From: an uncultured Cellvibrionales bacterium
GTDB lineage: Bacteria; Pseudomonadota; Gammaproteobacteria; Pseudomonadales; GM7GCV1
Direction of reading: 5' to 3'
DNA length: 64,000 bases
Assembly (NCBI GenBank): GCA_913063225.1
Contig: CAJXYP010000016.1
Location: 1-64,000 of the forward strand
The position numbers and the translations under genes were made by a program. Position 1 is the stretch's first letter. Each line of letters opens with the position of its first letter. Below are positions 4,210-45,947 of this stretch, in pieces. The notes under the pieces are model-generated. The model searched no databases, had not been told where the DNA came from, and worked only from the letters and a program-made list of their open reading frames with translations.

Positions 4210-4722
4210 TTAGGGCGCCAAACTGTAGATTCGCTGAAATGTTCGCTCAGATATTTTCCAACCTTCATCCGCAAGCTGATATTTATCGAAATATTTACCC
4301 TGAGTTACAAAACCAGCCACTCCGATAACGTCACCTTCATTGTGAGAATCATCAGCCGTCGCCCCATATACGGTAGCGTAATGAATGCCGGTAGCATTGC
4401 TCTCATCGATGATGGTAATTTGGCTAGTAGACATAATATGCATACCAATACTGCTTTGATTGGCGGCCTCCACTCTCGCGGCTATTACATCGCGCCCGGT
4501 ATTTGGCGAACCGTTAATTATTAGTGTGCCATTTTCTGTAAACACGTTTGCGTAGCCTTGGGCGTCTAGATTGTCCCGAGCCATTGCATACCGATCAACT
4601 AGTTGCTTAATTTCTGCCTTAATTACCCATTCTTGCTCGGCACTCATATCTGCTGCCTGGGCACCAGAAAAGGCCAAAAGCAGCAGAATAGTTATCCAAT
4701 TTAGTTTCTTGTTCATTTTCAC
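4210..4722 (-). CDS. Secreted SnoaL/NTF2-like protein
   Basis: 170 residues: a signal peptide ending GAQA (about 24), then one SnoaL-like NTF2-fold domain. The helical start (EIKQLVDRYAMARDNLDAQGYANVFTENGTL) and closing GWKISERTFQRIY are typical of the family, which forms cone-shaped ligand-binding or catalytic pockets. A GGGGAGG Shine-Dalgarno precedes the ATG. The gene is first in a probable three-gene unit. A paralogue with the same layout and export signal lies at 9467-9961 inside the cytochrome operon. The substrate cannot be deduced. Confidence 0.82.
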   Translation of the reverse strand: MKMNKKLNWITILLLLAFSGAQAADMSAEQEWVIKAEIKQLVDRYAMARDNLDAQGYANVFTENGTLIINGSPNTGRDVIAARVEAANQSSIGMHIMSTSQITIIDESNATGIHYATVYGATADDSHNEGDVIGVAGFVTQGKYFDKYQLADEGWKISERTFQRIYSLAP

Positions 4723-4811: not shown

Positions 4812-5873
4812 TCAGGTTGAGCGATCATCACATGCATAGGACTCCCAAGGATAATCAGAAGGATAAACCGTATCTTCACCTGTCTGCTGGTCAACCCAAA
4901 ATAAGGGATCGTCGCCTATATAAGATCTAACTAGACCTAAAAGCTCACCGGAAGTGTTCAAGCTAAAGCGCTCTACCGCGTGAAAGAGCTCACTGTGAGT
5001 GCCTCTGCTTCCAGAAAAGTTTGTGAACCCAATAGTGTCTACCACCAATACACCATCTTCCCAGTGGCCGATGGAATGACCAGCCCAAGTCGGATCAATA
5101 TCGGCAGGATGACTAGACATACCCATATGAATAGTGCGCTCGGTATCCATAAAACCATACTTCAGAACGATTTTGTCTTCTTCTTGGATGATTCGATTCG
5201 CAGGCTGATCAAATGTCCAATCTGAGAAGAAATCCCTTGGCTGGCAATCCAAACGTCCGGCTACGGTGTCTTCAGGATCAACATTCTCTGCTCTATAGGC
5301 TTCGCCCGCGTCTGTAAGTTCGACTCCTCGTCGACCACCAGGCCCACGAGGAGGCCCACCAGCGCCACCAGCGGCGGTTGGACCACTAATAGCGCCAACC
5401 AATCGTTGAGTAGCGGCCCAGTCACCATCGATATTCGGATCACCCCAAGCTGTTACTGCAGCTCTTGTTGGTTCAGAATCAAATTGGCCTTCTTCAATCT
5501 GCTCATAACGTGCAACAGTAGGCCCGCCATTAAAAGAAATAGTCTCGGTGTAGCAACCCAGTGGATCGCGACGCGACGCGACGCCTTCAATATGCACCGA
5601 AGTGCCCAGCGCAAACATCTCAGGAGTCCATCCTGAACGGCGCAGAACAGAGGAGGCGCGAAGTTCGCAGTTCCACGTTTCCACATCACCACTTTCGGTG
5701 GTGACATCGATATACACATAGGCATGCGGGTTCACAAAGGCGAGGTCGGATATAACGCCAGTAACCGTAAGGAGTTTGCTGGCATCAAATTGACCATTTG
5801 TGCCGTGATGTGCCAAAACCGTGCTTGGCAACGCTATTGCTAGTGCCGCTATGGCAATAAGTCTAATTATCAT
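4812..5873 (-). CDS. DUF6152-type secreted protein (long form)
   Basis: 353 residues with a Sec signal peptide whose predicted cleavage (VLA, residues 19-21) leaves a mature N-terminus of His-His. The first 110 residues match the DUF6152-type pattern seen in five other proteins here: VNPHAYVYIDV, then a W-x-C-E strand (ETWNCELRAS), then SGWTPEMFALGT. A longer C-terminal part follows, with a Gly/Pro/Arg linker (about 160-185) and a second beta-rich region holding GHWEDGVLVVDTIGF. The closest paralogue in the window is at 35832-36878. The molecular role is unknown; metal binding by the N-terminal histidines is my inference. It is divergent from the DUF6152 gene at 6123. Confidence 0.8.
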   Translation of the reverse strand: MIIRLIAIAALAIALPSTVLAHHGTNGQFDASKLLTVTGVISDLAFVNPHAYVYIDVTTESGDVETWNCELRASSVLRRSGWTPEMFALGTSVHIEGVASRRDPLGCYTETISFNGGPTVARYEQIEEGQFDSEPTRAAVTAWGDPNIDGDWAATQRLVGAISGPTAAGGAGGPPRGPGGRRGVELTDAGEAYRAENVDPEDTVAGRLDCQPRDFFSDWTFDQPANRIIQEEDKIVLKYGFMDTERTIHMGMSSHPADIDPTWAGHSIGHWEDGVLVVDTIGFTNFSGSRGTHSELFHAVERFSLNTSGELLGLVRSYIGDDPLFWVDQQTGEDTVYPSDYPWESYACDDRST

Positions 5874-6122: not shown

Positions 6123-7235
6123 ATGAGAATCATCAGTTTGAAAATCATCCTGCTCGTAGGATTTTTGCTCGGCAGCGCGTCAGCACTAGCACACCATTCT
6201 TTTGCAGCGACCTTTAGGTCCGACGAGATGAACACCGTTGAGGGTGTGGTAACTGACTTTCGATTTAGAAATCCTCATGTGGTGATCTATCTCGACGTTT
6301 CCAATCCTGATGGCAGTGTCACCAATTGGTTAGCGGAAGGAGCTGCAGCGACAGGTTGGCGACAGGCCGGATGGGGAAACGACAGTCTCACTTCCGGAGA
6401 TATGTTGCGCATCGTTGGCAGCGCCACTCACGATGGTTCACCTATGGTATCCATCGATGAGATGTTTATGCTCAATCCAAGCAACGGCGAAGTATTGGCT
6501 GAGCTGACTTCAAGTGAAGATCCAGAGGTCTCCTTAGGCAACGCTGCGGAAGCTGAAGCAGTAGTTAGCGAGCTCACTTTCCTTCCCGCCACCTTGCCCA
6601 CAGGCGAACCAAATTTCACCGGCGTCACCACTCGAATTGAAGGTTTTGGCCGAGGCGGACCCGACGCAAACGACCCCACCATGCCCTACAACTCCGTGGG
6701 AGAAGCTGCGAATATCAGCGATGCTTGGAGCTTAGAAAATGACCCGCAGGTATTTTGCGATCCGCCCGGACTTTCGCGTCAGGCCGGATATACACCCTAC
6801 GGACAGATAATCCACCAATACCCTGATCATGTAACTATTGAATACGAAGAATATGGTTCACGCAGAGCGATATTTTTCGACGACGAACTTCCAGCACCTG
6901 GCATTCAAAGTCACTTGGGCGATTCCGTTGCGCGCTACGAAGGCGATAACCTGGTAATTGAAACCGTCAATTTGCTACCGAACTTAAGCGGACACCGAGG
7001 CAAGCCGCTGAGTGACCAAACTCGTATCGTAGAAGTGTATACGCGAGAAGATAATTCTGATTATGGAACCATGTTAATTACTGAAACGACTGTCCACGAC
7101 CCGGTATACCTTACAGAGCCTTGGACCATTTCAAGAACCAAAGCCTACGCAGATGGCTACGAGTTTATTGAAAATGGTTGTGTTGCGCCGCTTCGCGAAC
7201 GACCAGCGAATGTATGGCAGCAAACTGACCGGTAA
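6123..7235 (+). CDS. DUF6152-type secreted protein (long form)
   Basis: 370 residues. The signal peptide ends ALA at residue 23, leaving His24-His25 as the predicted mature N-terminus. The DUF6152-type core follows: VVTDFRFRNPHVVIYLDV, NWLAEGAAATGWRQAGW, then a G-D-x-L-R-I-V-G strand. The C-terminal half is acidic and ends in Cys-containing ENGCVAPLRERP. It shares the architecture of the 4812 and 35832 proteins but is more diverged. A G-run Shine-Dalgarno fixes the start. The gene is divergent from the 4812-5873 gene across a 249-base promoter region and convergent with the cytochrome operon at a shared terminator. Confidence 0.8.
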   Translation: MRIISLKIILLVGFLLGSASALAHHSFAATFRSDEMNTVEGVVTDFRFRNPHVVIYLDVSNPDGSVTNWLAEGAAATGWRQAGWGNDSLTSGDMLRIVGSATHDGSPMVSIDEMFMLNPSNGEVLAELTSSEDPEVSLGNAAEAEAVVSELTFLPATLPTGEPNFTGVTTRIEGFGRGGPDANDPTMPYNSVGEAANISDAWSLENDPQVFCDPPGLSRQAGYTPYGQIIHQYPDHVTIEYEEYGSRRAIFFDDELPAPGIQSHLGDSVARYEGDNLVIETVNLLPNLSGHRGKPLSDQTRIVEVYTREDNSDYGTMLITETTVHDPVYLTEPWTISRTKAYADGYEFIENGCVAPLRERPANVWQQTDR

Positions 7236-7253: not shown

Positions 7254-7284
7254 TAAAAAAAGGGGGCTTAAAAGCCCCTTTTTT
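7254..7284. terminator. Bidirectional intrinsic terminator
   Basis: Stem GGGGCTT / AAGCCCC with a very short A-rich loop, preceded by seven A and followed by six T. It lies between two convergent genes (stops at 7235 and 7309) and can end both transcripts, including the whole minus-strand cytochrome operon. Confidence 0.88.
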
Positions 7285-7308: not shown

Positions 7309-8349
7309 CTAGGGTGCTTGCGTAGCCAAATAAGCGGATATATTCATCATATCTTCTGCGTTCAAATTGGCGAGCACCGACGTCATTAACAGGCTTACTC
7401 TGGTGCCCTGCTTAACATCCCACATCTGCCTCATAAGATAGCTTGTGGTGCGTCCAGCAATACTAGGCACATCGCCTAATCCTTTTAGATCTAAGCCGTG
7501 ACAAGCACCACAGAGGATGGTTTTTCCAGCACCCGTGGTAACTAGCGCTTCGCCCTTGGCAATACTGCCCACAGGAACATAGGCTATAAAGGTACCGCGC
7601 GGGTTGCGCATAATTTCTGTCTCTTCAAGGTTCTCGGTAACTTCGACAATATAATCACCTAATGGCTGCCAGGGCACCTCTTCATCCGGCATTGTTAGAC
7701 GATTAAGACTGGCGCGAACCTGCGGCGCTTGCTCTGATTCAACCACCCGCACCATAGAACGAAAGGGTAATGACGAATAGTACTCAGCAACTTGACTCTT
7801 TTCTTCATCGGTTAACCAAGCGGCAATGCGCGCCATCTCATTGGTATTGGCTTTACGATAATCCGCGCTAATTCGTTCGCCATTTTTAAAGGCTTCGAGC
7901 TGCTGCAAAATATAATTGGCTGGCAAACCACTGACATGACCATTTTCTACTTTCCCCTGCCCATTCGGAAAATGACAGAGAGAGCATGGACGGATACCTC
8001 GCTCCATATCGCCGATAGCAATAATTTCTGGCATGTCGGGATGATCACCAGGATACCAATCCGCCGGCTGCCAAGAATAATTCGCTTCGACACGAGTAAA
8101 GGTAAGGCTTGTTCCCGGCAGACTGTGCTTGACCCCATCGTCCACCAGCGGAGTACCCACAGGCCCGCAGGAGCGTGGATTCGCCATTTCTGGACATGGC
8201 GGCACCTGGTATATATTTGGATCCGTTTCTTGCAAAGACTCAAAATATCCGTAAGCCCAATTCGGCCAATCCGGATCATCTTGCTGAGCTAACACTGTGT
8301 TGAAACCACAGCACAAAACCATAGCGCCAAATAACATCTGATTCTTCAT
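7309..8349 (-). CDS. Secreted diheme cytochrome c
   Basis: 346 residues with a signal peptide ending VLA-QQ (about 21). There are two heme c-binding motifs: CSLCH at 122-126 and CGACH at 280-284. Each sits in a cytochrome c-type domain: the first followed by a GQGK loop, the second by GLDLKGLGDVPSIAGR and SYLMRQMWD, where a Met may serve as axial ligand. Extra Cys at 52 and 61 near the N-terminus could form a disulfide. It is a tandem paralogue of the next gene upstream (8395-9423) and the last gene of a six-gene cluster. The likely role is periplasmic electron transfer; the partner is unknown. Confidence 0.88.
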   Translation of the reverse strand: MKNQMLFGAMVLCCGFNTVLAQQDDPDWPNWAYGYFESLQETDPNIYQVPPCPEMANPRSCGPVGTPLVDDGVKHSLPGTSLTFTRVEANYSWQPADWYPGDHPDMPEIIAIGDMERGIRPCSLCHFPNGQGKVENGHVSGLPANYILQQLEAFKNGERISADYRKANTNEMARIAAWLTDEEKSQVAEYYSSLPFRSMVRVVESEQAPQVRASLNRLTMPDEEVPWQPLGDYIVEVTENLEETEIMRNPRGTFIAYVPVGSIAKGEALVTTGAGKTILCGACHGLDLKGLGDVPSIAGRTTSYLMRQMWDVKQGTRVSLLMTSVLANLNAEDMMNISAYLATQAP

Positions 8350-8394
8350 GTCGCTGAGCCTTCCTCTGTTAAATTTCGTATCTCAGAACGGTAA

Positions 8395-9423
8395 CTATTG
8401 ACTGAATTCGTGGGGAACGAGAGTAGCCACATAGGCCAATATATTTAGTATGTCTTCCGAACTCAAATTGGCAACTACGCCTTCCATTAACGGACTAACA
8501 CGGGTGCCCATTTTGACATCCCACATTTGACGCATATTGTAGCTGGCTGTTCGGCCAGCAATACCGGGAACACTTGCCAACCCTCGCAGGCCGGGACCAT
8601 GACAGGCTGAGCATTGAATGGTTTTTCCCCCACCGGTTTCAACCAACTCCTCACCCTTGGCAACACTTCCAATTGGTACGTAGGAAACAAACGTACCACG
8701 CGGATCTCGTAGTGCTTCAGTTGCGTGTGGATTTTCAGGCACTTCAACTATCTTGTTACCTAAGGCTATCCATGGAGCTCCCTCGATAGGCACAACTAAC
8801 TGGGTTCGAAGGGTTTCAACTTGAGGAGCCATATCGGTCTCAACTACCCGAACCATGGATCGAAAAGGAACTCGCACATAATACTCAGCCACTTCTAACT
8901 TCTCTTCTTCTGTCATCATCTCCGAGATTCGAATCATCTCGTAGGTATTCGGTTTACGAGGGTCCGAGGTAGAACGATCCCCATTTATAAAGGCTTCAAA
9001 CTGCTCCATAACGTAAACAACGGGTAACCCAGAAAGATGTGCGTTTTCCGTTTTTCCCTGGCCAGTAGCAAAATGACAGAATGCACAGGCGCGGATACCC
9101 CGTTCCGGATCTCCCCTTGCAACGAGCTCTGGCATTTCGGGATGATCTCCGGGATACCAATCGGCCGGCCCATAAAAATTATTAACCTCAGCATCGGAGA
9201 AAGAAAAACTAGTACCAGGCAATGCAAGTTTGGGCTGATCGACGTCACTGCCGTCCGCGCTATATGCCGGTGGCTCTCCCGAGCGCGCTGGGATATTGAA
9301 ATCCTCATCGCTAATGGGCTCATAGCGAGCATAAGCCCAGTCTGGCCAGTCAATGGCCTGAGCTTGAATGCCTGCCGTGAAAGCAAGAAAAAATAGTATC
9401 GGTAGTTTGGACATAGTCCTCAT
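8395..9423 (-). CDS. Secreted diheme cytochrome c (tandem paralogue)
   Basis: 342 residues with a signal peptide ending IQA. Heme motifs are CAFCH (113-117) and CSACH (271-275), with the same spacing and surrounding blocks (PADWYPGDHPEMPE, PFRSMVRVVE, PRGTFVSYVPIGSVAKGE) as its neighbour at 7309, so the pair arose by duplication. The N-terminal Cys pair of the neighbour is missing here. GGAGG lies nine bases before the ATG at 9423; an ATG three codons later is an alternative. The 45-base gap to the next gene suggests co-transcription. Confidence 0.88.
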   Translation of the reverse strand: MRTMSKLPILFFLAFTAGIQAQAIDWPDWAYARYEPISDEDFNIPARSGEPPAYSADGSDVDQPKLALPGTSFSFSDAEVNNFYGPADWYPGDHPEMPELVARGDPERGIRACAFCHFATGQGKTENAHLSGLPVVYVMEQFEAFINGDRSTSDPRKPNTYEMIRISEMMTEEEKLEVAEYYVRVPFRSMVRVVETDMAPQVETLRTQLVVPIEGAPWIALGNKIVEVPENPHATEALRDPRGTFVSYVPIGSVAKGEELVETGGGKTIQCSACHGPGLRGLASVPGIAGRTASYNMRQMWDVKMGTRVSPLMEGVVANLSSEDILNILAYVATLVPHEFSQ

Positions 9424-9466
9424 GACCCTAATCCTCCATCAATCCGTGGTATTAGCGGAAAGCTTT

Positions 9467-9961
9467 TTAGCCCGGCTTTCTATAAATAACGTTAAAAATA
9501 CGTTCTGAAATTCTCCAGCCATCCTCGGTTTTAACATACTTGTCGAAATGATTACCAATGACCTCGAATGACTCTAAGGTGGCAGGCGCATCCCCTTTAA
9601 GTCCATGAGCAACTGCCGCGTAGGTAACCCCCGTGGCATTCTGCTCATCGATAGGCTCAATCTTTACCGTAGTCACCAAATGCATACTGACGTCATTGGG
9701 GTCGTCGTGTAATACGTGGTCGACCAAGGCCTCACGGCCACCGATCCATTCACCTCGCACTGTCATTCGGGCGTCTTCAGTGAACAGGTTGGCAAAGTTT
9801 TCAGGATCTCGCAGACCTCGGTAGTAGGCGTAATCATTTACTAAGAGAGTGCAATCAAAAATTATCTCTCTTTTTTCCGCGGCGGATAAATCCGCAAATA
9901 CGCTAGTTATTAGAATTAACTGCGCCATCAAAACCACAAAGATAATTCTAAGCAATTGCAT
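9467..9961 (-). CDS. Secreted SnoaL/NTF2-like protein
   Basis: 164 residues with a signal peptide ending VFA (about 24), then one SnoaL-like domain (LVNDYAYYRGLRDPENFANLFTEDARM, closing EDGWRISERIFNVIYR). It is a paralogue of 4210-4722; both keep N-A-T-G-x-x-Y-A in the central strand. It lies 8 bases after the ABM-fold gene and 43 before the first cytochrome, inside the redox cluster. It could be a small ligand-binding or isomerase-like partner; nothing in the sequence names a substrate. Confidence 0.82.
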   Translation of the reverse strand: MQLLRIIFVVLMAQLILITSVFADLSAAEKREIIFDCTLLVNDYAYYRGLRDPENFANLFTEDARMTVRGEWIGGREALVDHVLHDDPNDVSMHLVTTVKIEPIDEQNATGVTYAAVAHGLKGDAPATLESFEVIGNHFDKYVKTEDGWRISERIFNVIYRKPG

Positions 9962-9969
9962 TGGTATTC

Positions 9970-10776
9970 CTATTCGCGAATAAGCTTAAAGAGACGCTCA
10001 TCCCATAGGCTGCCGGTCAGCATATCCGGAGTGAACTGGGGATCTTCGTTTACGCCACTACCCACGACAACACCCGCTAGCGCATCGCGGAAGTTCTTTT
10101 TATCCTGATGTACCTGATGTGCCAATTGGGTTGATGCGCTCTGCCACATTTCCACAACCGTCATATGATTGGGCCGATTCGATTGAGTCAAGACATCAAA
10201 GCGCATATTGCCATGGTGTGCCCGGCTATCATTTGCCAACCCTATAAGCAGACCGTTGGAGCAAGGTCCATTTGGATCCGGTCGCCGATTACAGGGGGGG
10301 AATTGTTCTGGAGGGATAGAATCCGCATGCGTTATTACATAGACCGTATCCGGTTCTCCCGCAGGAATAGCATCGAAAGCAGTAGTCGCTAATCCCAGAT
10401 GTTGTCGTTCGTCGTAAGGGGCGTAAAGCAGCGGCTGCAAAGCGTTGCGGTATGCGACTGTATGAGCGGCAGCAGCATGGTTCGCGCGCGCTTCTGGACT
10501 ACTCCAAGCCTCTAAAACCACAAAATGATTATCTCGGTTAACACGCTGTATTGCCTCAAAACGCAGATTGCCTTGCTCCATGCTGCTAGCTTCAGATTGC
10601 GCCGCCAAAAGTCTTTCAGTCTCTTCAACCGCATCCGCCGCGACTTCAATATAGGTAACGATCCATGTTGGAGCTTCGGATAAAACTGTTCCATCAGCCA
10701 ATTCAACATCTGCCGTGGAATAACCAGCTACAAGAAGGGCGAGTATTGCGGCACAAACATTAGAGAAGATTTTCAT
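9970..10776 (-). CDS. Secreted tandem ABM-domain (dimeric ferredoxin-like) protein
   Basis: 268 residues from the ATG at 10776, which begins a good signal peptide (MKIFSNVCAAILALLVAG); the frame is open further upstream but that would bury the signal. Two antibiotic-biosynthesis-monooxygenase-like modules follow: PTWIVTYIEV to FVVLEAWSSPEARANHAAA, and DTVYVITHAD to MTVVEMWQSASTQLAHQ. Each has the strand / V-V-x-E-x-W / helix signature. ABM domains act in small-molecule oxidation or heme handling, usually as dimers; here the dimer appears fused. The second module has a Cys-containing insert (PPCNRRPDPNGPCSNG). It starts 14 bases after the lipoprotein stop. Confidence 0.78.
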   Translation of the reverse strand: MKIFSNVCAAILALLVAGYSTADVELADGTVLSEAPTWIVTYIEVAADAVEETERLLAAQSEASSMEQGNLRFEAIQRVNRDNHFVVLEAWSSPEARANHAAAAHTVAYRNALQPLLYAPYDERQHLGLATTAFDAIPAGEPDTVYVITHADSIPPEQFPPCNRRPDPNGPCSNGLLIGLANDSRAHHGNMRFDVLTQSNRPNHMTVVEMWQSASTQLAHQVHQDKKNFRDALAGVVVGSGVNEDPQFTPDMLTGSLWDERLFKLIRE

Positions 10777-10790
10777 ATGCTTACTTCGCC

Positions 10791-12935
10791 CTATTTTGCC
10801 AATGGATCTGGTCTTACCTGGAAGTGCACAACTAACGGAAGACTGCCGTCGCCATCCTCTTTGTGCCACGGCGTCCGATCGCCACTTGGCACCCAAAGGC
10901 CACGACCTTTCCAGCCAGCATCGGGGTCATCTATCCGCCCCTCAAAACCCTTGGTAAAGAAGCCCATGGGGTAAGGAACGCTCAGGGTCACAAACTCGCC
11001 ATCGACTAAAGCGTGCAGACCGTCAAACTGGTTACCTGTGGCTATGGGCGTATTGGCGCCCAAACCGAAGGTATCGTGCTGATCTACCCAGGTGTAATAG
11101 CTAGCTTCTACGCTGTAATCAGGATAGTTAACGAATCCGGGGCCGGGCAGATCATGGAAGGTCCAACCTTCAGGGCAATGGTCTCCAGTTGCCTCCGGAC
11201 CATTTAAAGGTCCCGTACACTTGCTCCGATCAAACTCGCCCATATGCCCACTGCCAAGGGAAACCCAAACTACACCGTTAAGATCTATATCAGCTCCACG
11301 AACGCCAAATCCTGGTTCGGGCACGTTGTATCTTTCTATCAACGCAGTAGCTGGAGGGTTCTCACCTGGATCCAACCTGGTGATTGAACCCGGCACACCG
11401 GTAGTTGATCCCCAGACCGAATCATCGACTGGGCTCGGCATAACAGCGTAAAAGCCATAGTTGGCAATCTGTCCACCACCAGAAATACGCATATCTAAAT
11501 CTGGGTTGGCCTCTTCATCTGGTTCAGTGTAGGCGTCGCGTTGCCCATTGCCGTTGTAGTCGAGGATCATGGCAGTCCAACCTTGGGATGCAGCTTCATC
11601 GCCAGTTTCCAGAAACATATTTGTATCTAGCCAACCTACAACGTCACCGGATCCGCTGGTCCAAAGCGTATTGTTCTCATCTTCCGCGAACTGCAGGTGA
11701 TGCGTGGCAAAGCAGGTATCAACAAATACGTATTCGCCAGTATCAGGCTCGTAGTAGGCCAGGTGGCGAGCAATGCTCTTGTTTGTTGGGAAAGCCTGAG
11801 CAGAGGGGTGGTCTGAACCCTCTAGACAGAAATCGGGGTTATTTGCTGGATCCCTCACGGTAACCGTGTACCAGACGCGACCATCCTGATCCAACATCGG
11901 GTTATGAGCATTTGCCTTAGAATCCCAGATCTGATCCGGACCCCAATGCGGTGAAGGCGCCATCATGGAAAAGTAGTCCAAAGCTCCGGGCGTATCCTCG
12001 TCCCTAACCGGCGCAAAAAAGCTCGTGGATGTATTGTTGACTGGATCCAGTATTGGGAAATCATCAGTACTGTGTTCTGGAGCTCCGTAAAGTGGCCCAT
12101 AAGCATTCACAGTCGGGTCACGACGATCTGTACCAGACAGATCATGCATGTAACCAGTTGGTTTTGACCAATCCCTAACCGTAATAACCGCATTGCGCTC
12201 TATGCCAGCTGGGCGTTCCGGCTGAACATGAGGGATTGCGCCAGCTGCTATCCTATCCGTCCACTCAGACAGGTATTTGTAAGGTACGCCTCTTAGCTGG
12301 GCAGCAGCTTGCCGAATCATGATAAAAGCGGCTTGTCCGGACTGGGTTCGTCGTACCCAAGCCGCGTGAGAAGTTTCGAATTCACCAAGCGTCTCAGGAA
12401 GAGTTCTTGTATAGAGATTTCCCAGCTGATGGCAACTAGCACAGCCCAAGTTTTTAACCCATGCGAGATATTCATCGAGCCCGTAATCCAAATGAGCAAC
12501 CTCTTCTTCGCTAGGCACTTCGATCATGGAATACCAGTAGGCGGCGGGATACACCAAGGCAGCCGTTGCAGCATCAGGAGCAACAACTGCAGTCAAATCC
12601 AAATGGCTACCTGGAGCAGCGTCAACTTTAGCGGAGTCGGCCAAACCGTAACCTCGTACCCAAAGGCTATAGCTTGCTTCCGGCAGATCTGGCACTAAAT
12701 AACGACCTTGATCATCTGTGACAACGCTTTTTGAGAAACGAGTTTCCAAATCGTCTGTTTCAGCAATAACCCAAACTCCTGCTTCAGGCCCGTTGGCACT
12801 GGTAACAACACCAGCAATATCGTCACTATCAATTTTGATGGCTTTTTCTGCGCCGTCGATACTGGCATCACAACCGGCCAGAATCAGCAAAGTTGAGATT
12901 AGGATAAGTCCTGTGGATTTTGCTAAAAATTTCAT
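10791..12935 (-). CDS. Lipoprotein with carboxypeptidase-like Ig domain, heme motif and propeller-like region
   Basis: 714 residues from the ATG at 12935. That start gives a perfect lipoprotein signal (ILISTLLILAGC, lipidated Cys22); a longer frame reaching 13004 would bury it, and GGGG six bases upstream supports it. Asp follows the Cys, which in the Lol system favours retention on the inner membrane. Residues 36-120 look like a carboxypeptidase regulatory-like beta-sandwich. CASCH at 165-169 can bind one heme c. The rest holds repeated strand segments (GRVWYTVTVRDP, NTLWTSGSGDVVGW, DSVWGSTTGVPGSI, NGVVWVSLGSGHMGEF) like a Vgb/streptogramin-lyase or NHL propeller. It is probably a membrane-anchored redox or substrate-binding component. 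Confidence 0.75.
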   Translation of the reverse strand: MKFLAKSTGLILISTLLILAGCDASIDGAEKAIKIDSDDIAGVVTSANGPEAGVWVIAETDDLETRFSKSVVTDDQGRYLVPDLPEASYSLWVRGYGLADSAKVDAAPGSHLDLTAVVAPDAATAALVYPAAYWYSMIEVPSEEEVAHLDYGLDEYLAWVKNLGCASCHQLGNLYTRTLPETLGEFETSHAAWVRRTQSGQAAFIMIRQAAAQLRGVPYKYLSEWTDRIAAGAIPHVQPERPAGIERNAVITVRDWSKPTGYMHDLSGTDRRDPTVNAYGPLYGAPEHSTDDFPILDPVNNTSTSFFAPVRDEDTPGALDYFSMMAPSPHWGPDQIWDSKANAHNPMLDQDGRVWYTVTVRDPANNPDFCLEGSDHPSAQAFPTNKSIARHLAYYEPDTGEYVFVDTCFATHHLQFAEDENNTLWTSGSGDVVGWLDTNMFLETGDEAASQGWTAMILDYNGNGQRDAYTEPDEEANPDLDMRISGGGQIANYGFYAVMPSPVDDSVWGSTTGVPGSITRLDPGENPPATALIERYNVPEPGFGVRGADIDLNGVVWVSLGSGHMGEFDRSKCTGPLNGPEATGDHCPEGWTFHDLPGPGFVNYPDYSVEASYYTWVDQHDTFGLGANTPIATGNQFDGLHALVDGEFVTLSVPYPMGFFTKGFEGRIDDPDAGWKGRGLWVPSGDRTPWHKEDGDGSLPLVVHFQVRPDPLAK

Positions 12936-13003
12936 TTTGGTCCCCGAAAAAATCAGCCCGCGCCTAAGCGCAGCAATACAAAAAGAAGGTGTTTTTGAGT
13001 TCA

Positions 13004-13417
13004 TTATTTAGAAGCTGCCAAAGATCGTCGGCCGTCCAAGGAGAATTGATTGTATTCCAAATTGTGCACCAGATGAGAGAACACAAATACGTAGACAAGG
13101 TGCCGGAAAACCAACGCCCAATCCTGAACAAGGTTCATACCGAAAACCAGAGTAGCCATTAAAACCACTGCCATAATGAGGGCAAGGCGGGTTTGAAAAC
13201 CAAGGAATAATAGGACACCAATAGTCATCTCAACCGGTGGAATCAATCCAGCTTCTAGAGTTATCAACCATTTGGGTAACCAGGTATCAGCAAATACACC
13301 ATGAGTCCATGCGATAAAGGCCCCATAATTTTCGCCCAGTCGAACTGCCCCATGCAAAAACATATTCATCCCAACAAAAAGCCGTAAAAGCGTGTAAGCC
13401 AGTACCTTGTCACTCAT
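13004..13417 (-). CDS. DoxX-family membrane protein
   Basis: 137 residues with four predicted membrane helices and DoxX hallmarks: an early R-x-F-x-G-M-N-M-F-x-H-G segment and PPVEMTIGVLLFLGF. DoxX proteins are small inner-membrane proteins often encoded with redox enzymes, some being subunits of quinone-dependent oxidases. The ATG at 13417 is preceded by GGGGGG at 13425-13430; a TTG one codon earlier is possible. It is the first gene of the six-gene minus-strand cluster, 68 bases before the lipoprotein, which suggests a membrane anchor or quinone link. Confidence 0.8.
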   Translation of the reverse strand: MSDKVLAYTLLRLFVGMNMFLHGAVRLGENYGAFIAWTHGVFADTWLPKWLITLEAGLIPPVEMTIGVLLFLGFQTRLALIMAVVLMATLVFGMNLVQDWALVFRHLVYVFVFSHLVHNLEYNQFSLDGRRSLAASK

Positions 13418-13662
13418 CAAAAGACCCCCCTTTCGTTGTGTAGAAAGATCGGCCTATAATTCAAAAAACCGACTTTGCACTTTGTAATTTGGCAGTAAAA
13501 CGCCTTAGAATCAACCGGTAAATGCTTTAAAACTGTTAACTAGAGAAGCCTCACACGAGTAAAACTAAATATATCTCGAAAGTAGACCTCTTCCACAAGA
13601 CTAGGCAAGATGCAATTTCACTACATTGCAAAACTATAGTTATCGATTCTTGAGGGGGAATT

Positions 13663-14679
13663 ATGTCGAGACGAAATTTTCTTAGAACTTCTGCTTTGGC
13701 GGGTGCCGGTGCAGCCATCGGAGGACTAGGTATATCCTCTGCGTCAGCGCAGTCTAGCCAGCCAATTCGCATCATCATGACTGGCTACGGACCATCAACT
13801 ACAAGCTTCAGTCTTGCTCTTAAACGCATGGGCGATAGGGTTGAGGCTAAGTTTCCCGGTCAAGTAGAAGTCCAATATGTCTACAATATCCTCGACCTCG
13901 GATACAAAGGATCAGACATTCTTTGGCTGGTAGAAAACGGCATTGTTAGCATGGGCTATCAGTCCAGTAGCTATCTAACAGACCGGGTATCTGATTTAGG
14001 CGCCGTTGACCTGCCCTTTATCTTTCCAGACAACGCCTCTGCTCGACGCTCAATGGACGGTGAGTTGGGCGAACTGCTAACCAATAGTATTGAAGCCAAT
14101 ACCGACTATCGAATTCTCGGTTACTTTGAAAACGGCGAACGACATTTTTCAAATAATGTGCGACCAATCCGCACCCCACATGATCTAAGGGGCCTTTCTG
14201 TTCGATCCCTGCCAAGCAAGATTCACGAACGTACATTCGAACTGCTAGGTGCAGATCCCGAGATTATGGATTTGTCCGAAGTTATTAAGCGGGTAGTGGC
14301 AGGCACTATCGATGTGCAAGAAAACCCCTTCGCCAATACCGTGACGTATGGCGTCCACAACTATCATAAGTACCATAGTGCTAGCAGTCATTTTTATATT
14401 TCCCGACCCATCTTTTTCCATCGCCCAACCTTCGAATCCTGGCCATTGGAATTACAACAGGAAATGCAGGCAGCGGTAATCGAAGCGGTAGCTTTTCAGC
14501 GCAAGATGAAAGATCAGGAAGAGTTGGATGCTCGTGTCGCTATCCGCGAAGCGGGCGGTGAAATAGTGGAACTGACTACTGAAGAGCGACAAATGTTTAT
14601 CGATGCAGTGACGCCAATTTACGCGGAATTGCGCGATCAGTATTCACCAAAGCTTCGTGCATTAGTGGGAATAAATTAA
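13663..14679 (+). CDS. TRAP-type periplasmic solute-binding protein (DctP family)
   Basis: 338 residues. The N-terminus is a Tat signal (SRRNFLRTSALAGAG, cleavage after SASA), so it is exported folded. The mature part follows the DctP fold: IRIIMTGYGPSTTSFSLALKRMGDRV, a central LRGLSVRSLPSKIHERTFELLGADP block carrying the conserved substrate-carboxylate Arg region, and the VAGTIDVQENPFANT segment. No dctQ or dctM membrane subunits lie nearby; the next gene, directly abutting (TAA then ATG), is an exported metallo-beta-lactamase-fold enzyme. A GGGGG run ends four bases before the ATG. The ligand may be a carboxylic acid, but this is not shown. Confidence 0.85.
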   Translation: MSRRNFLRTSALAGAGAAIGGLGISSASAQSSQPIRIIMTGYGPSTTSFSLALKRMGDRVEAKFPGQVEVQYVYNILDLGYKGSDILWLVENGIVSMGYQSSSYLTDRVSDLGAVDLPFIFPDNASARRSMDGELGELLTNSIEANTDYRILGYFENGERHFSNNVRPIRTPHDLRGLSVRSLPSKIHERTFELLGADPEIMDLSEVIKRVVAGTIDVQENPFANTVTYGVHNYHKYHSASSHFYISRPIFFHRPTFESWPLELQQEMQAAVIEAVAFQRKMKDQEELDARVAIREAGGEIVELTTEERQMFIDAVTPIYAELRDQYSPKLRALVGIN

Positions 14680-15606
14680 ATGAACCGACTAAAGAGCTTT
14701 GGCGGCATCAGGCTAATTGGTGCAGTAATCGCGCTTATGACTTCAAGCGTCTTAGCTCAACTAAGCGCACCGTACTCGGACGACTTTCTCTCTAGAGTGC
14801 GTATCGCCGCAACAAGTATCCCCGGAGACTATGCTGAGTCTATTGGCTTTGCCAAGGTTGCCGAGAGCCATCGGCCCTATTCCGACATAATCGAAGACGG
14901 TAGCGACGCCCTATTTATTTCTGCTCGCAGCGCATATCAGCTGCGCTTCCCAAGCGGGACCATAATGCTGGATAGCGGAATGGACGAGGAAGTGCATACC
15001 TACTATGGCTTTGGTCGAGTAGAACCCTACTGGCAAGAAACCAACGATCAATTGCAGCAAGCCTTACTTGAATCACAAAAAATTCTGATTACACATGAGC
15101 ATGGCGACCACGTTGCCGGCATTGTTCGGAGTCCCAATAGAGACGCATTGGCCGCAAAAACATTGCTCACGGTCGCTCAGCTAGAAACCCTAACACTGCG
15201 GCCACAGCTTCCACAAATTCAAGTTTCTCCCGAACTAGCCAGTAAATTTATTGTTCTGGATTACCAAGATTTACTGCCTGTAGCTCCCGGCATCGTTCTT
15301 ATCAAGGCCCCCGGGCACACTCAGGGACACCAAATGGTATATGCCCGCCTTAGCGGAGATAGAGAGTTCCTCTTTATTGGAGATATCGGTTGGTCCCTAG
15401 ATAACATCACACAGCTGAAGCTTAGGCCAGCTCAAACTATCGCGCGGATCGGGGAAGATCCAGAAGCGCTTATGCAGCAGATGATCTGGATTAAAGAGCG
15501 CATGGATCAGGACGGCCTGATTATTGTCCCGTCCCACGACGATCGATTAATCAATAGATACGTCGAGGAAGGGATACTGGAGGACAGTCTAGTCCTGAGT
15601 AGATAG
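14680..15606 (+). CDS. Exported metallo-beta-lactamase-fold hydrolase
   Basis: 308 residues with a signal peptide ending VLA (about 26). The metal motif HEHGDH is at 139-144, and the later ligands are recognisable in KAPGHTQGHQMVY and FIGDIGWSLD, ending in VPSHDDR. It starts on the base after the stop of the TRAP-type binding protein, so the two are almost certainly translated together. The last 18 bases overlap the end of the convergent gene at 15589. The family hydrolyses esters, lactones, amides or phosphodiesters; the substrate is unknown, but pairing with a binding protein suggests a shared ligand. Confidence 0.85.
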   Translation: MNRLKSFGGIRLIGAVIALMTSSVLAQLSAPYSDDFLSRVRIAATSIPGDYAESIGFAKVAESHRPYSDIIEDGSDALFISARSAYQLRFPSGTIMLDSGMDEEVHTYYGFGRVEPYWQETNDQLQQALLESQKILITHEHGDHVAGIVRSPNRDALAAKTLLTVAQLETLTLRPQLPQIQVSPELASKFIVLDYQDLLPVAPGIVLIKAPGHTQGHQMVYARLSGDREFLFIGDIGWSLDNITQLKLRPAQTIARIGEDPEALMQQMIWIKERMDQDGLIIVPSHDDRLINRYVEEGILEDSLVLSR

Positions 15607-34050: not shown

Positions 34051-34443
34051 TTAATCAAACTCTTTTTCTACACCACCTTCCGGTGTGAGAAATCCAAGTA
34101 AACAACCCGTGTCGTCATCCCAAAGCTGATGGCAGCGCACACCGATTTCATCTCCGACTTCTATTTGGTCTCGCGTCCAGCCAGAATTTATCACCTGGGT
34201 AGGGCTAGCTCCCTCCAAAGACCAAACTTCGGGCTCGCCATCGTCATTGACAACTTCTATATAGATCCAGATATGCGGATTCATCCAGTGCAGCTCGACG
34301 ACCTCGCCGGTGAGATGAGTATATTGAGTCATGTTGTAGTTGCCGTGGGAATGATGTGCCGAGGCAGGTAACAACCAGAGAACGGCCGTTATAAAGACCA
34401 CAGTGATTGCGAGTTTTCGCAGGATATTCAAACTAACCATCAT
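34051..34443 (-). CDS. DUF6152-type secreted protein (short form)
   Basis: 130 residues: the DUF6152-type core with no C-terminal extension. The signal peptide ends PASA at 29, leaving a mature start HHSHG. Core blocks are VVELHWMNPHIWIYIEV, EVWSLEGASPTQVINSGW and VGDEIGVRC. It ends with two Cys (VRCHQLWDDDTGCLLG) that could pair. It is the smallest version in the window and so gives the likely domain boundary. GGAG lies upstream of a doubled ATG. It is probably co-transcribed with 33377-34012. Confidence 0.82.
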   Translation of the reverse strand: MMVSLNILRKLAITVVFITAVLWLLPASAHHSHGNYNMTQYTHLTGEVVELHWMNPHIWIYIEVVNDDGEPEVWSLEGASPTQVINSGWTRDQIEVGDEIGVRCHQLWDDDTGCLLGFLTPEGGVEKEFD

Positions 34444-35678: not shown

Positions 35679-35818
35679 ATTTACTCCCTCTTTTCAGCTA
35701 GTTTGTACCAGAATGCCTTGTAACAAAAGAAACCCAAGCATCCTGCACAAAATCGGTCCTATACCTTTCCCTAAATTGACTCTTTTTGTTACCTTGGCAC
35801 CACGGAAAACGCTTGGTT

Positions 35819-35823
35819 GGGGG
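35819..35823 (+). promoter_or_regulatory. G-run ribosome-binding site that sets a TTG start
   Basis: GGGGG lies eight bases before TTG 35832. An earlier in-frame TTG (35817) overlaps the run itself, so the later TTG is the better start; it also gives a clean signal peptide. Confidence 0.5.
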
Positions 35824-35831
35824 AATTAGCA

Positions 35832-36878
35832 TTGAATAAACTTATACTATCACTCTCAATTTCAGTTCTCATTGCCACGCCCGCGGTCACCTTTGCCCAC
35901 CACGGGACCACGGGACAGTTTGATAGGGATGCATTTATAGAAGTAAGCGGCGTGGTCACGGACGTGGCTTTTGTAAATCCGCACGCCTATGTTTATTTGG
36001 ATGTTATTGATGAAAATGGTCAGGTTGTGAACTGGCATTGCGAGATGCGCGCTGCAACGGTTTTACGCCGCTCAGGCTGGACCAAGGAGATGTTTACCAA
36101 TGGAACTCAACTGGATATTCTCGGTAACCCCTCCCACAAAGAAACCGATGGCTGCTATATCGAGACCATTTCATTTAACGGTGGCCCGACCATACAGCGC
36201 TACGCTCAGATAGAAGAAAACCAAGCCCCAGCGAATACAGAAAGACCACTGCGCACAGCTGCGGGCAAGCCCTACATTGGCGGCGATTGGGCAGCGTCAC
36301 AGAACCTACCGGCACAAGGTGAGATCGACCCAAGCTTTGGACAACTTCGCACAGAGGCAGTTATTTTGACGTCTTTGGGAGCTGCGGCTTTGGAAGCGAA
36401 TCAAATTGCCCCAGGCGACAATATTACTGGCCGGTTGGATTGCACTGCCAGAGATGTACTGAACGACTGGATATACAACGAAAGTCCAAACCGAATCATT
36501 CAGGCTGAGGACACAATAACTCTGCAATACGGTTTTATGGATACGGTGAAGGTCGTGCATATGAATATGCCAGAGCATCCCGAAAATATAACGCCAAACT
36601 GGATAGGACACTCGATTGGCTGGTGGGAAGAAGACGTTTTAGTAGTCGATACTATCGGCTATACGATGGCGCCTGGCCGCGGCAATGGAAACTTCCACAG
36701 CGAGCAACTTCATTCCGTTGAACGCTTTTCTTTAGATACCGAAAACTGGGTAATCAATCGTTCTTACGTGGCCGAAGATTCTTTGTTTTGGGCAAATACA
36801 ATTGCCAGTAATGACACCGTATATTTGTCCGGCCTTCCTTACGAACCTTATAGCTGCGACGACCGTGCGGTGGAATAA
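35832..36878 (+). CDS. DUF6152-type secreted protein (long form)
   Basis: About 348 residues from TTG 35832. The signal peptide ends VTFA at 22, leaving a mature start HHGTTGQFD, almost the same as HHGTNGQFD of the 4812-5873 protein, its closest paralogue. Shared blocks are VAFVNPHAYVYLDV, NWHCEMRAATVLRRSGW, GCYIETISFNGGPT, RLDCTARD and IGHSIGWWEEDVLVVDTIGY. The Gly/Pro linker of the 4812 protein is replaced by an Ala-rich stretch. Five Cys are conserved between the two. It is followed by a terminator. Function unknown. Confidence 0.82.
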   Translation: MNKLILSLSISVLIATPAVTFAHHGTTGQFDRDAFIEVSGVVTDVAFVNPHAYVYLDVIDENGQVVNWHCEMRAATVLRRSGWTKEMFTNGTQLDILGNPSHKETDGCYIETISFNGGPTIQRYAQIEENQAPANTERPLRTAAGKPYIGGDWAASQNLPAQGEIDPSFGQLRTEAVILTSLGAAALEANQIAPGDNITGRLDCTARDVLNDWIYNESPNRIIQAEDTITLQYGFMDTVKVVHMNMPEHPENITPNWIGHSIGWWEEDVLVVDTIGYTMAPGRGNGNFHSEQLHSVERFSLDTENWVINRSYVAEDSLFWANTIASNDTVYLSGLPYEPYSCDDRAVE

Positions 36879-44229: not shown

Positions 44230-44336
44230 CATAACGCCTCAAACACCGGATTGTGAATGTTGGCGGTTTTTTTGCGTGTTTTTTTCAAAAAAGGTGACAG
44301 CATTTACAATTCCGAGTGCTTTGACTTGTTATGCCC
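44230..44336 (-). mobile_element. attC site a
   Basis: Minus strand opens GGGCATAACAAGTCAAAGCAC and closes GTGTTTGAGGCGTTATGT; the arms are complementary over about 14 bases. Its opening core contains the TAA stop of the DUF6152-type gene at 44329. About 107 bases. Confidence 0.8.
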
Positions 44337-44838
44337 TAGTTATTAGGCCCAACACACCTTCCTGTGCCGAAGAGCCTGCATAAGAATCGCGGACCCAGAT
44401 CCCGAATACTGAGGACTGTTGCTCGTTAGGGATAGTATTTGCTGTGTTTACTGAAATATCGGATCGTCCCTGAGGAGACCTGAAAGTAAACGATCGACCG
44501 TCAGACAGCTGCACAGTGCCAATTTCACATTCATGTTCTGCTCGACGGGCGCGACTACCCTCAATAACCAGGCTATCACCAACAATAAGATCTTTTTCAA
44601 ACAGACCCTTCCTGTCCAGCAGGGTCTTTGCCTGCGTTTCGCATGTCCATAGCGTAGTGGTGCCGTCAGTTTCTAGGGCCAAAATTTCCATACTCGAATG
44701 CGGATTTCTAATTGAGACCGACTGTATTCGCCCTTCAAAACTAACCCTATCCGTCGCATAAAAATGCAACGGAAAACCATGATGAGCCATAGTGTTTCCT
44801 GCAACTATTAGCCACGCAACACTAACTAGAAATTTCAT
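44329..44838 (-). CDS. DUF6152-type secreted protein (short form, cassette-linked)
   Basis: 169 residues from ATG 44838, chosen for GGAGGAAGAG upstream and a proper signal peptide; a longer frame exists to 44883 but buries the signal. Cleavage after NTMA (18) leaves a mature HHGFPLHF. Core blocks are IQSVSIRNPHSSMEILAL, TTLWTCETQAKTLL and VGDSLVIEGSRA. The stop codon TAA is part of the opening core of attC site a, the layout expected for a cassette gene. No attC is visible upstream of it, so it may be the edge cassette. Confidence 0.8.
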   Translation of the reverse strand: MKFLVSVAWLIVAGNTMAHHGFPLHFYATDRVSFEGRIQSVSIRNPHSSMEILALETDGTTTLWTCETQAKTLLDRKGLFEKDLIVGDSLVIEGSRARRAEHECEIGTVQLSDGRSFTFRSPQGRSDISVNTANTIPNEQQSSVFGIWVRDSYAGSSAQEGVLGLITRA

Positions 44839-44954
44839 TTCTCTTCCTCCTAGAAGAAAAATCGTGCTCCAAATGGGCGCCAATAATTTGGCTTCAGCCT
44901 GCTCAGAGCTTATGATCTAGGGTAAATATTTTCAATATTTTCCTTGGGGGAAAA

Positions 44955-45947
44955 ATGCTTAGGTCACTAACCATATCAGCGATTCTGATGCTTCTAGCAA
45001 CAACCGCTTCTGCTCACCACAATTGGGCAGCCACATACGACGTCAATACCGACATAGAGATCGAAGGCGTCATTAGCTCGATTGAATGGCGAAACCCACA
45101 TATCAGGGTGAGCTTCACTGTCAACGGCGGCACATCTAATGAAAAAATATATACAACAGAGAGTAATTCCGTTGCCAGCCTTACCCGAATGGAAGTAACT
45201 GCAGATCTATTGTCAGTTGGCACTCCCGTGCGAGTCGCGGGTTATCGCTCAAGAACTTCCGATACCGATATCTTTATGAATCACCTTTTACTGCCAAGTA
45301 ATCGCGAAGTGATCTTTTTGCGTACAGCGGATCCACGCTGGCCGGACGCAGCTAGAGTTGGCAACACAGCGCGCCTGCACGGCGGCGTTGTTGAAGACGA
45401 CTTTACTAAACGACCCACTTCAGTGTTCGGTGTTTGGACGACCGTATTCGGTGGTCAGGGTAGCCACCAGGCTCTAGGAAAAGATCCTGCTCAGTGGACT
45501 GAAAAGGGTAAAGAAATGGCGGAGCTAGCCGCCAATACACCGGTTGATTCCAGTTGCACCCCTAAGGCAATGCCCGGAGTAATGGGAAACCCCTACCCAA
45601 TCCAGCTAATCGATCAAGGCGAAATGGTAATTATTCATGCTGAAGAATTTGATTCTATTCGCGAAGTCCACATGGGAGTGCCACATATGGATCCTGGCAC
45701 TGCAGATATCTTGGGCTATTCCACGGGCCGATGGATTGAAAACACACTAACCGTCACTACTACCTTTGGCGGCAGTGAATCAGACATGCGGGTTCTCGAG
45801 AGCTTTAGCTTGAGCGGCGACCACAATCGGCTGCTTTATAGTCAGGTTATTGTCGACCCTGAAATGCGTGTCATGCCCACCGTCAATAAGAAATGGTGGC
45901 AGTATCAACCCGGTGCTTTTGTTCAGCCTTACGAGTGCTCTTATTAG
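44955..45947 (+). CDS. DUF6152-type secreted protein (long form)
   Basis: 330 residues. The signal peptide ends TASA at 20, leaving a mature HHNWAATYD. Core blocks are ISSIEWRNPHIRVSFTV, IYTTESNSVASLTRMEV and VGTPVRVAGYR. The C-terminal part has GHS-free but related strand segments (GYSTGRWIENTLTVTTTFGG, RVLESFSLSGDHNRLLYSQV) and ends with Cys (EPYECSY-like QPYECSY), as in the 4812 and 35832 proteins. CCTTGGGGG ends four bases before the ATG. It is divergent from the cassette-linked DUF6152 gene across 116 bases. Confidence 0.8.
   Translation: MLRSLTISAILMLLATTASAHHNWAATYDVNTDIEIEGVISSIEWRNPHIRVSFTVNGGTSNEKIYTTESNSVASLTRMEVTADLLSVGTPVRVAGYRSRTSDTDIFMNHLLLPSNREVIFLRTADPRWPDAARVGNTARLHGGVVEDDFTKRPTSVFGVWTTVFGGQGSHQALGKDPAQWTEKGKEMAELAANTPVDSSCTPKAMPGVMGNPYPIQLIDQGEMVIIHAEEFDSIREVHMGVPHMDPGTADILGYSTGRWIENTLTVTTTFGGSESDMRVLESFSLSGDHNRLLYSQVIVDPEMRVMPTVNKKWWQYQPGAFVQPYECSY

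Follow-up and report, generated by a model that had tools for sequence, protein, structure and literature searches.

A six-gene row encoding a heme-propeller lipoprotein and diheme cytochromes c in an uncultured Cellvibrionales bacterium, with a likely composite history

Virginiamycin B lyase (Vgb, the streptogramin B lyase; PDB 2z2n and 2qc5) is built as a seven-bladed propeller and is a non-redox lyase. Cytochrome c4 (PDB 1etp and 6q2u) is a diheme protein with two CxxCH cytochrome domains. Relatives within the DoxX family are DoxD of thiosulfate:quinone oxidoreductase, MauE and HvfX, and examples of the ABM family are the quinol monooxygenase YgiN and LsrG; the known ABM and SnoaL families are small enzymes without bound cofactors.

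Protein types related to these were encoded side by side in the window, which is the whole stretch of 64,000 nucleotides analysed here, from an uncultured Cellvibrionales bacterium. The C-terminal two thirds of a lipoprotein shared the seven-bladed propeller with Vgb, but this protein had additional CarboxypepD_reg and heme c segments as well as a lipid anchor. The two cytochromes shared both CxxCH domains with cytochrome c4, and differed from it by their greater length (342-346 aa), an N-terminal extension and a long inter-heme linker. In contrast to thiosulfate:quinone oxidoreductase (DoxDA), no DoxA family match was present among the six genes. Unlike the known ABM and SnoaL_4 families, the ABM and SnoaL proteins of the row appeared to be exported, and the ABM protein carried two domains in one chain.

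Layout of the row and its protein families

In the ORF list of the window, six ORFs followed one another in the same direction on the minus strand from 13417 to 7309. The gaps calculated from their coordinates were 68, 14, 8, 43 and 45 bases, reproducing each figure given for six co-directional genes in the first-pass annotation. The row and its surroundings comprised the following features:

13004..13417, minus strand: DoxX-family membrane protein, 137 aa, first in the row, module A (Pfam DoxX)
10791..12935, minus strand: lipoprotein, 714 aa (LAGC-D), with CarboxypepD_reg at about 40-116, a heme c segment and a propeller at about 243-709, module A
9970..10776, minus strand: exported protein with two ABM domains, 268 aa, module B, the core (Pfam ABM)
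9467..9961, minus strand: exported SnoaL_4 (NTF2-like) protein, 164 aa, module B (Pfam SnoaL_4)
8395..9423, minus strand: periplasmic diheme cytochrome c (cytA), 342 aa, CAFCH at 113 and CSACH at 271, module B
7309..8349, minus strand: periplasmic diheme cytochrome c (cytB), 346 aa, CSLCH at 122 and CGACH at 280, module B
7263..7278, no strand assigned: bidirectional terminator hairpin with a T run and an A run, common to the row and a convergent DUF6152 gene
13418..13662, no strand assigned: intergenic region between the row and a divergent DctP gene, with a stretch weakly similar to the sequence that precedes the ABM gene in a second genome of the genus
13663..14679, plus strand: TAT-exported DctP solute-binding protein, divergent, a syntenic landmark outside the row

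The single terminator that had been ascribed to the row was recovered 3' of its last gene as a strong terminator-like hairpin, GGGGCTTTTAAGCCCC, followed by a T run (7278-7263). An A run flanked the hairpin on the opposite side, so the hairpin can serve as terminator for the convergent gene at 6123-7235 as well. The totals of predicted promoters and terminators across the region showed no excess over shuffles, and the case for the terminator was thus made by hairpin quality and position only. No RNA elements were found in the window by Rfam. When the N-termini were read by eye, a signal peptide or lipobox was seen in five of the six products, the exception being DoxX, in agreement with the export signals described before.

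The family names assigned earlier (DoxX, a CASCH propeller lipoprotein, tandem ABM, NTF2-like and two diheme cytochromes c) matched the Pfam and CxxCH scans. The DoxX protein matched PF07681 with 25.3 bits against a cut-off of 23.6. The ABM protein matched PF03992 in two stretches with 56.5 bits, above the cut-off, and the product of the fourth gene matched SnoaL_4 (PF13577) with 66.7 bits. Both cytochromes gave Cytochrom_C matches in Pfam and contained two CxxCH motifs each, as in diheme c4-like proteins; cytochrome c4 chains were the best matches of cytA in a sequence search of solved structures, and cytA and cytB were paralogs with 58% identity. The putative roles of a "small-molecule oxidase module" (ABM and SnoaL) and of a "quinone-linked" protein (DoxX), named in the first-pass annotation, were drawn from family names only.

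Further members of these families were observed outside the row. A second exported SnoaL_4 protein was encoded at 4210-4722 on the minus strand, about 37% identical to the ortholog of the row's SnoaL protein in the second genome of the genus (G002). A third close member of the cytochrome family in the window genome adjoined a TonB-dependent receptor, as is also the case in G002, and a cytochrome-family member was likewise found beside a TonB receptor at locus L031.

The heme-propeller family and its neighbours

The heme-propeller family is the most notable part of the row, widespread and unstudied, and assigning it a function would improve the annotation of hundreds of genomes. In the N-terminal part of the lipoprotein, Pfam CarboxypepD_reg scored 31.2 bits, just below the cut-off of 32.3. 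This first domain was all that Pfam recognised; no Pfam or NCBIfam model covered the heme segment or the propeller, and NCBIfam gave nothing. The reading frame was open further upstream to 13004, where it touches DoxX, and the start at 12935 fits a predicted signal peptide better. The lipobox had Asp at +2, a residue that keeps lipoproteins in the inner membrane in enterobacteria. A crude lipobox pattern was passed by 27 of 83 relatives, suggesting that lipid anchoring may not be general in the family.

The protein contained a single CxxCH motif (CASCH, residue 165). In an alignment of 83 propeller-family sequences, with relatives 56-75% identical to the window protein, CxxCH was present in 83/83 and about 190 positions were at least 95% conserved. 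Met206 was among the residues conserved at this level (at least 95%), and is a candidate axial ligand of the heme, judged from the alignment. Five histidines (H344, H412, H413, H564 and H586) were also conserved and are candidates for a counterpart of the Vgb metal/His site. The family extended over at least five phyla, and was frequent among uncultured bacteria from soil, marine and sediment settings; cultured carriers include Steroidobacter agaridevorans and Microvirga. The Chloroflexota label of one relative (L078) was set aside as a probable misbinning; its protein was nearly identical to that of the gammaproteobacterial L037.

In a predicted model of the lipoprotein (pLDDT 86, pTM 0.88), the N-terminal domain was a small beta structure, the heme segment was helical, and the propeller was seven-bladed and of Vgb type. 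The best PDB match of the modelled propeller was Vgb (Z 22.8, the next fold reaching 19.9), with an rmsd of 2.7 A over about 290 residues at 12% identity. Neither the sequence of the propeller protein nor its profile gave a useful match among solved structures, and the profile did not reach Vgb. The heme segment folded alone with a pLDDT of 74, which is moderate confidence, and Foldseek listed no confident fold match and no cytochrome c fold for it, which speaks neither for nor against such a fold. A different protein (L036_4, about 436 aa, cluster 27) combined an N-terminal CxxCH cytochrome-like segment with Vgb-type propeller-like repeats, so the combination of heme c and propeller seems to be present in more than one family.

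About 366 relatives of the propeller protein were found in bacterial genome contigs, and the best 80 were taken with their flanks, which reached at least 700 bp upstream in 77 and at least 3 kb downstream in 58; contig ends therefore account for little of the missing neighbours. The commonest neighbour was an Amidohydro_2 gene, located directly upstream on the same strand with gaps of 79-115 bases at six loci (L024, L031, L037, L044, L078 and L080); at two of these, L024 and L044, a solute-binding protein was encoded less than 150 bases downstream. Some loci had a GSDH sugar dehydrogenase as neighbour. As a recurrent partner, the amidohydrolase is more plausible than DoxX, which stood upstream of the propeller gene in one locus among the best 80 of about 366, that of Ca. 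Rariloculus (L010). Relatives of the diheme cytochromes were found adjacent to the propeller gene or in its vicinity at L029 and L031, which belong to one clade, and at the acidobacterial L086, and their presence at these three further loci supports an electron-transfer link; most of the best 80 of about 366 loci had no such cytochrome nearby. Relatives of the row's ABM and SnoaL proteins occurred in none of these 80. The unfixed neighbourhood suggests that the propeller protein works with different partners.

The match to the fold of a non-redox lyase, together with recurrent partners that are amidohydrolase (six loci) and sometimes GSDH, not cytochromes, is what would be seen if the propeller protein were a Vgb-like lyase or isomerase, with a heme that is only sensing or structural and a row without a shared oxidation function. 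This reading is somewhat unlikely, as CxxCH was invariant across phyla and diheme cytochrome relatives lay close to the propeller gene in the three loci named above. The family could also constitute a distinct, new group of propeller oxidoreductases coupled to heme across the five or more phyla, which would combine with varied local partners (amidohydrolase, sugar dehydrogenase, diheme cytochromes or, in this row, the ABM/SnoaL core) and oxidise diverse periplasmic organic compounds; such a wide generalisation is improbable at present.

Separate occurrence of the two modules

The six-gene order was found in 0 of the best 80 of about 366 propeller loci, and its sub-blocks recurred only apart. 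Searching genomes at the levels of order, class and phylum did not recover it either; the ABM and cytochrome proteins were searched in 391 order-level genomes, and the class and phylum searches used sparse genome draws with strict E-value limits (1e-20 and 1e-30), at which distant relatives would be missed. No ABM relatives were found on plasmids and no cytochrome relatives on viral contigs. In the open-access literature searched, nothing relevant was found on the gene combination or on a heme-bearing Vgb relative. The first-pass annotation had proposed a single uncharacterised oxidation pathway, to be checked by conservation of the gene order in other genomes. The tight, exported redox row with one terminator was supported, and a single pathway with a conserved order was not. 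The row resembles a patchwork, specific to this lineage, of domain types that are already known.

Module B was found without module A in the same genus. On contig C42 of G002, DctP (77% identity) was followed by the ABM (73%), SnoaL (60%), cytA (73%) and cytB (81%) genes in the order of the window. DctP and ABM were separated by only about 245 bp, in which DoxX and the propeller gene were missing, and genes for a NAD-binding protein and a metallo-hydrolase came after cytB. Across the whole G002 genome, no match to DoxX or to the propeller protein was found. A third genome of the genus (G001) was without the propeller protein, DoxX, the ABM protein and close cytochrome relatives, and none of the four other family genomes included in the search had the propeller protein. 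Looser relatives of the tandem-ABM protein occurred singly and in other contexts in three genomes (G1014, G1024 and G1026), each of which also encoded the propeller protein at another site.

Module A, conversely, was found without the core in Ca. Rariloculus L010. There, DoxX directly preceded the propeller gene (75-77% identity), the core was not adjacent, and no tandem-ABM relative was found in the genome. The DoxX gene was present as pieces 51-62% identical to the window DoxX; the start of the contig (1-390) resembled an assembly fold-back, with DoxX in pieces on both strands, and this evidence is therefore to be read with care. Among the loci compared, the window genome and that of Rariloculus were the only two in which DoxX adjoined the propeller gene. 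In the tree, the propeller protein of the window formed a fully supported group (local support) with those of L010 and L011; the homologs from its own order, G044, G055 and G012, lay far away, which suggests transfer. G+C content showed no clear difference among the six genes and did not mark module A as foreign. The intergenic region 13418..13662 aligned locally with the sequence preceding the ABM gene of G002 with a score of 37, against a maximum of 33 in 200 shuffles, a weak resemblance.

With the core lacking module A in G002 and the DoxX-propeller pair lacking the core in L010, the row is probably composite. These results suggested that the DoxX-propeller pair was likely joined, in this lineage, to a separate core. 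Module B (tandem-ABM, SnoaL-like and two diheme cytochromes c) would be a set common within the genus, and module A would have been inserted between the upstream region and the pre-existing module B. Horizontal transfer, with a donor lineage close to Ca. Rariloculus, is the probable origin of module A.

Alternatively, the six genes could be an ancestral operon of the lineage from which G002 deleted DoxX and the propeller gene. The short gaps along the whole row and the comparable G+C content of its six genes are compatible with such descent, and a weak similarity between the upstream regions would arise whether the pair was gained or lost. However, the absence of the propeller protein from the four other family genomes, its closest homologs being in other groups, and the DoxX-propeller pair without the core in Rariloculus make an ancestral operon unlikely.

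Proposed mechanism and surroundings of the row

For a composite row, a redox mechanism may be proposed tentatively; in the form given here it is less likely than not. The lipid-anchored propeller protein would sit at the periplasmic face of a membrane, and a small organic molecule could be bound and transformed at the central funnel of the propeller. The heme c of this protein would then hand electrons to the two diheme cytochromes, through which they would reach a terminal oxidase. The ABM and SnoaL proteins may handle reactive, perhaps quinone- or phenol-like, products, and DoxX would be an accessory membrane partner. Since the core occurs without the propeller protein, the cytochromes cannot depend on the propeller protein alone: either they serve another donor too, or the core has its own function. 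Taken as a whole, a putative composite transcription unit with this mechanism is the best explanation of the row, with a probability slightly below even chances.

An arrangement like methylamine dehydrogenase, with a propeller heavy chain and a MauE/DoxX-type membrane partner, is suggested by a weak match of the DoxX protein to MauE (22.7 bits, below the 27-bit cut-off), and is highly improbable, both the quinone-bearing small subunit and MauG being absent from the six genes and the nearest propeller fold being Vgb.

Several features were observed around the row. Genes of the DUF6152 family (PF19649), to which the convergent gene downstream of the row belongs, were greatly expanded in the window genome, with 59 matches in 2.26 Mb. 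G002 gave 58 matches and G001 gave 21; the sister genus had 1-2, and MAGs that carry the propeller gene had 71-150. No match was found in 14 control genomes. The copies in the window were located at 4812-5873 (minus), 6123-7235 (plus), 34108-34368 (minus), 35817-36878 (plus), 44329-44883 (minus) and 44955-45947 (plus); the first two were detected by direct Pfam scan, one more by the genome-wide scan and the rest by sequence similarity. No mention of the family name was found in the open-access literature.

On the other side of the row, at 13663-15606 on the plus strand, the DctP gene was directly followed by a gene for an exported metallo-hydrolase, and TRAP membrane genes did not adjoin. DctP relatives were also located about 4-5 kb from the propeller genes at L037 and L044, and three DctM genes were present elsewhere in the window genome.
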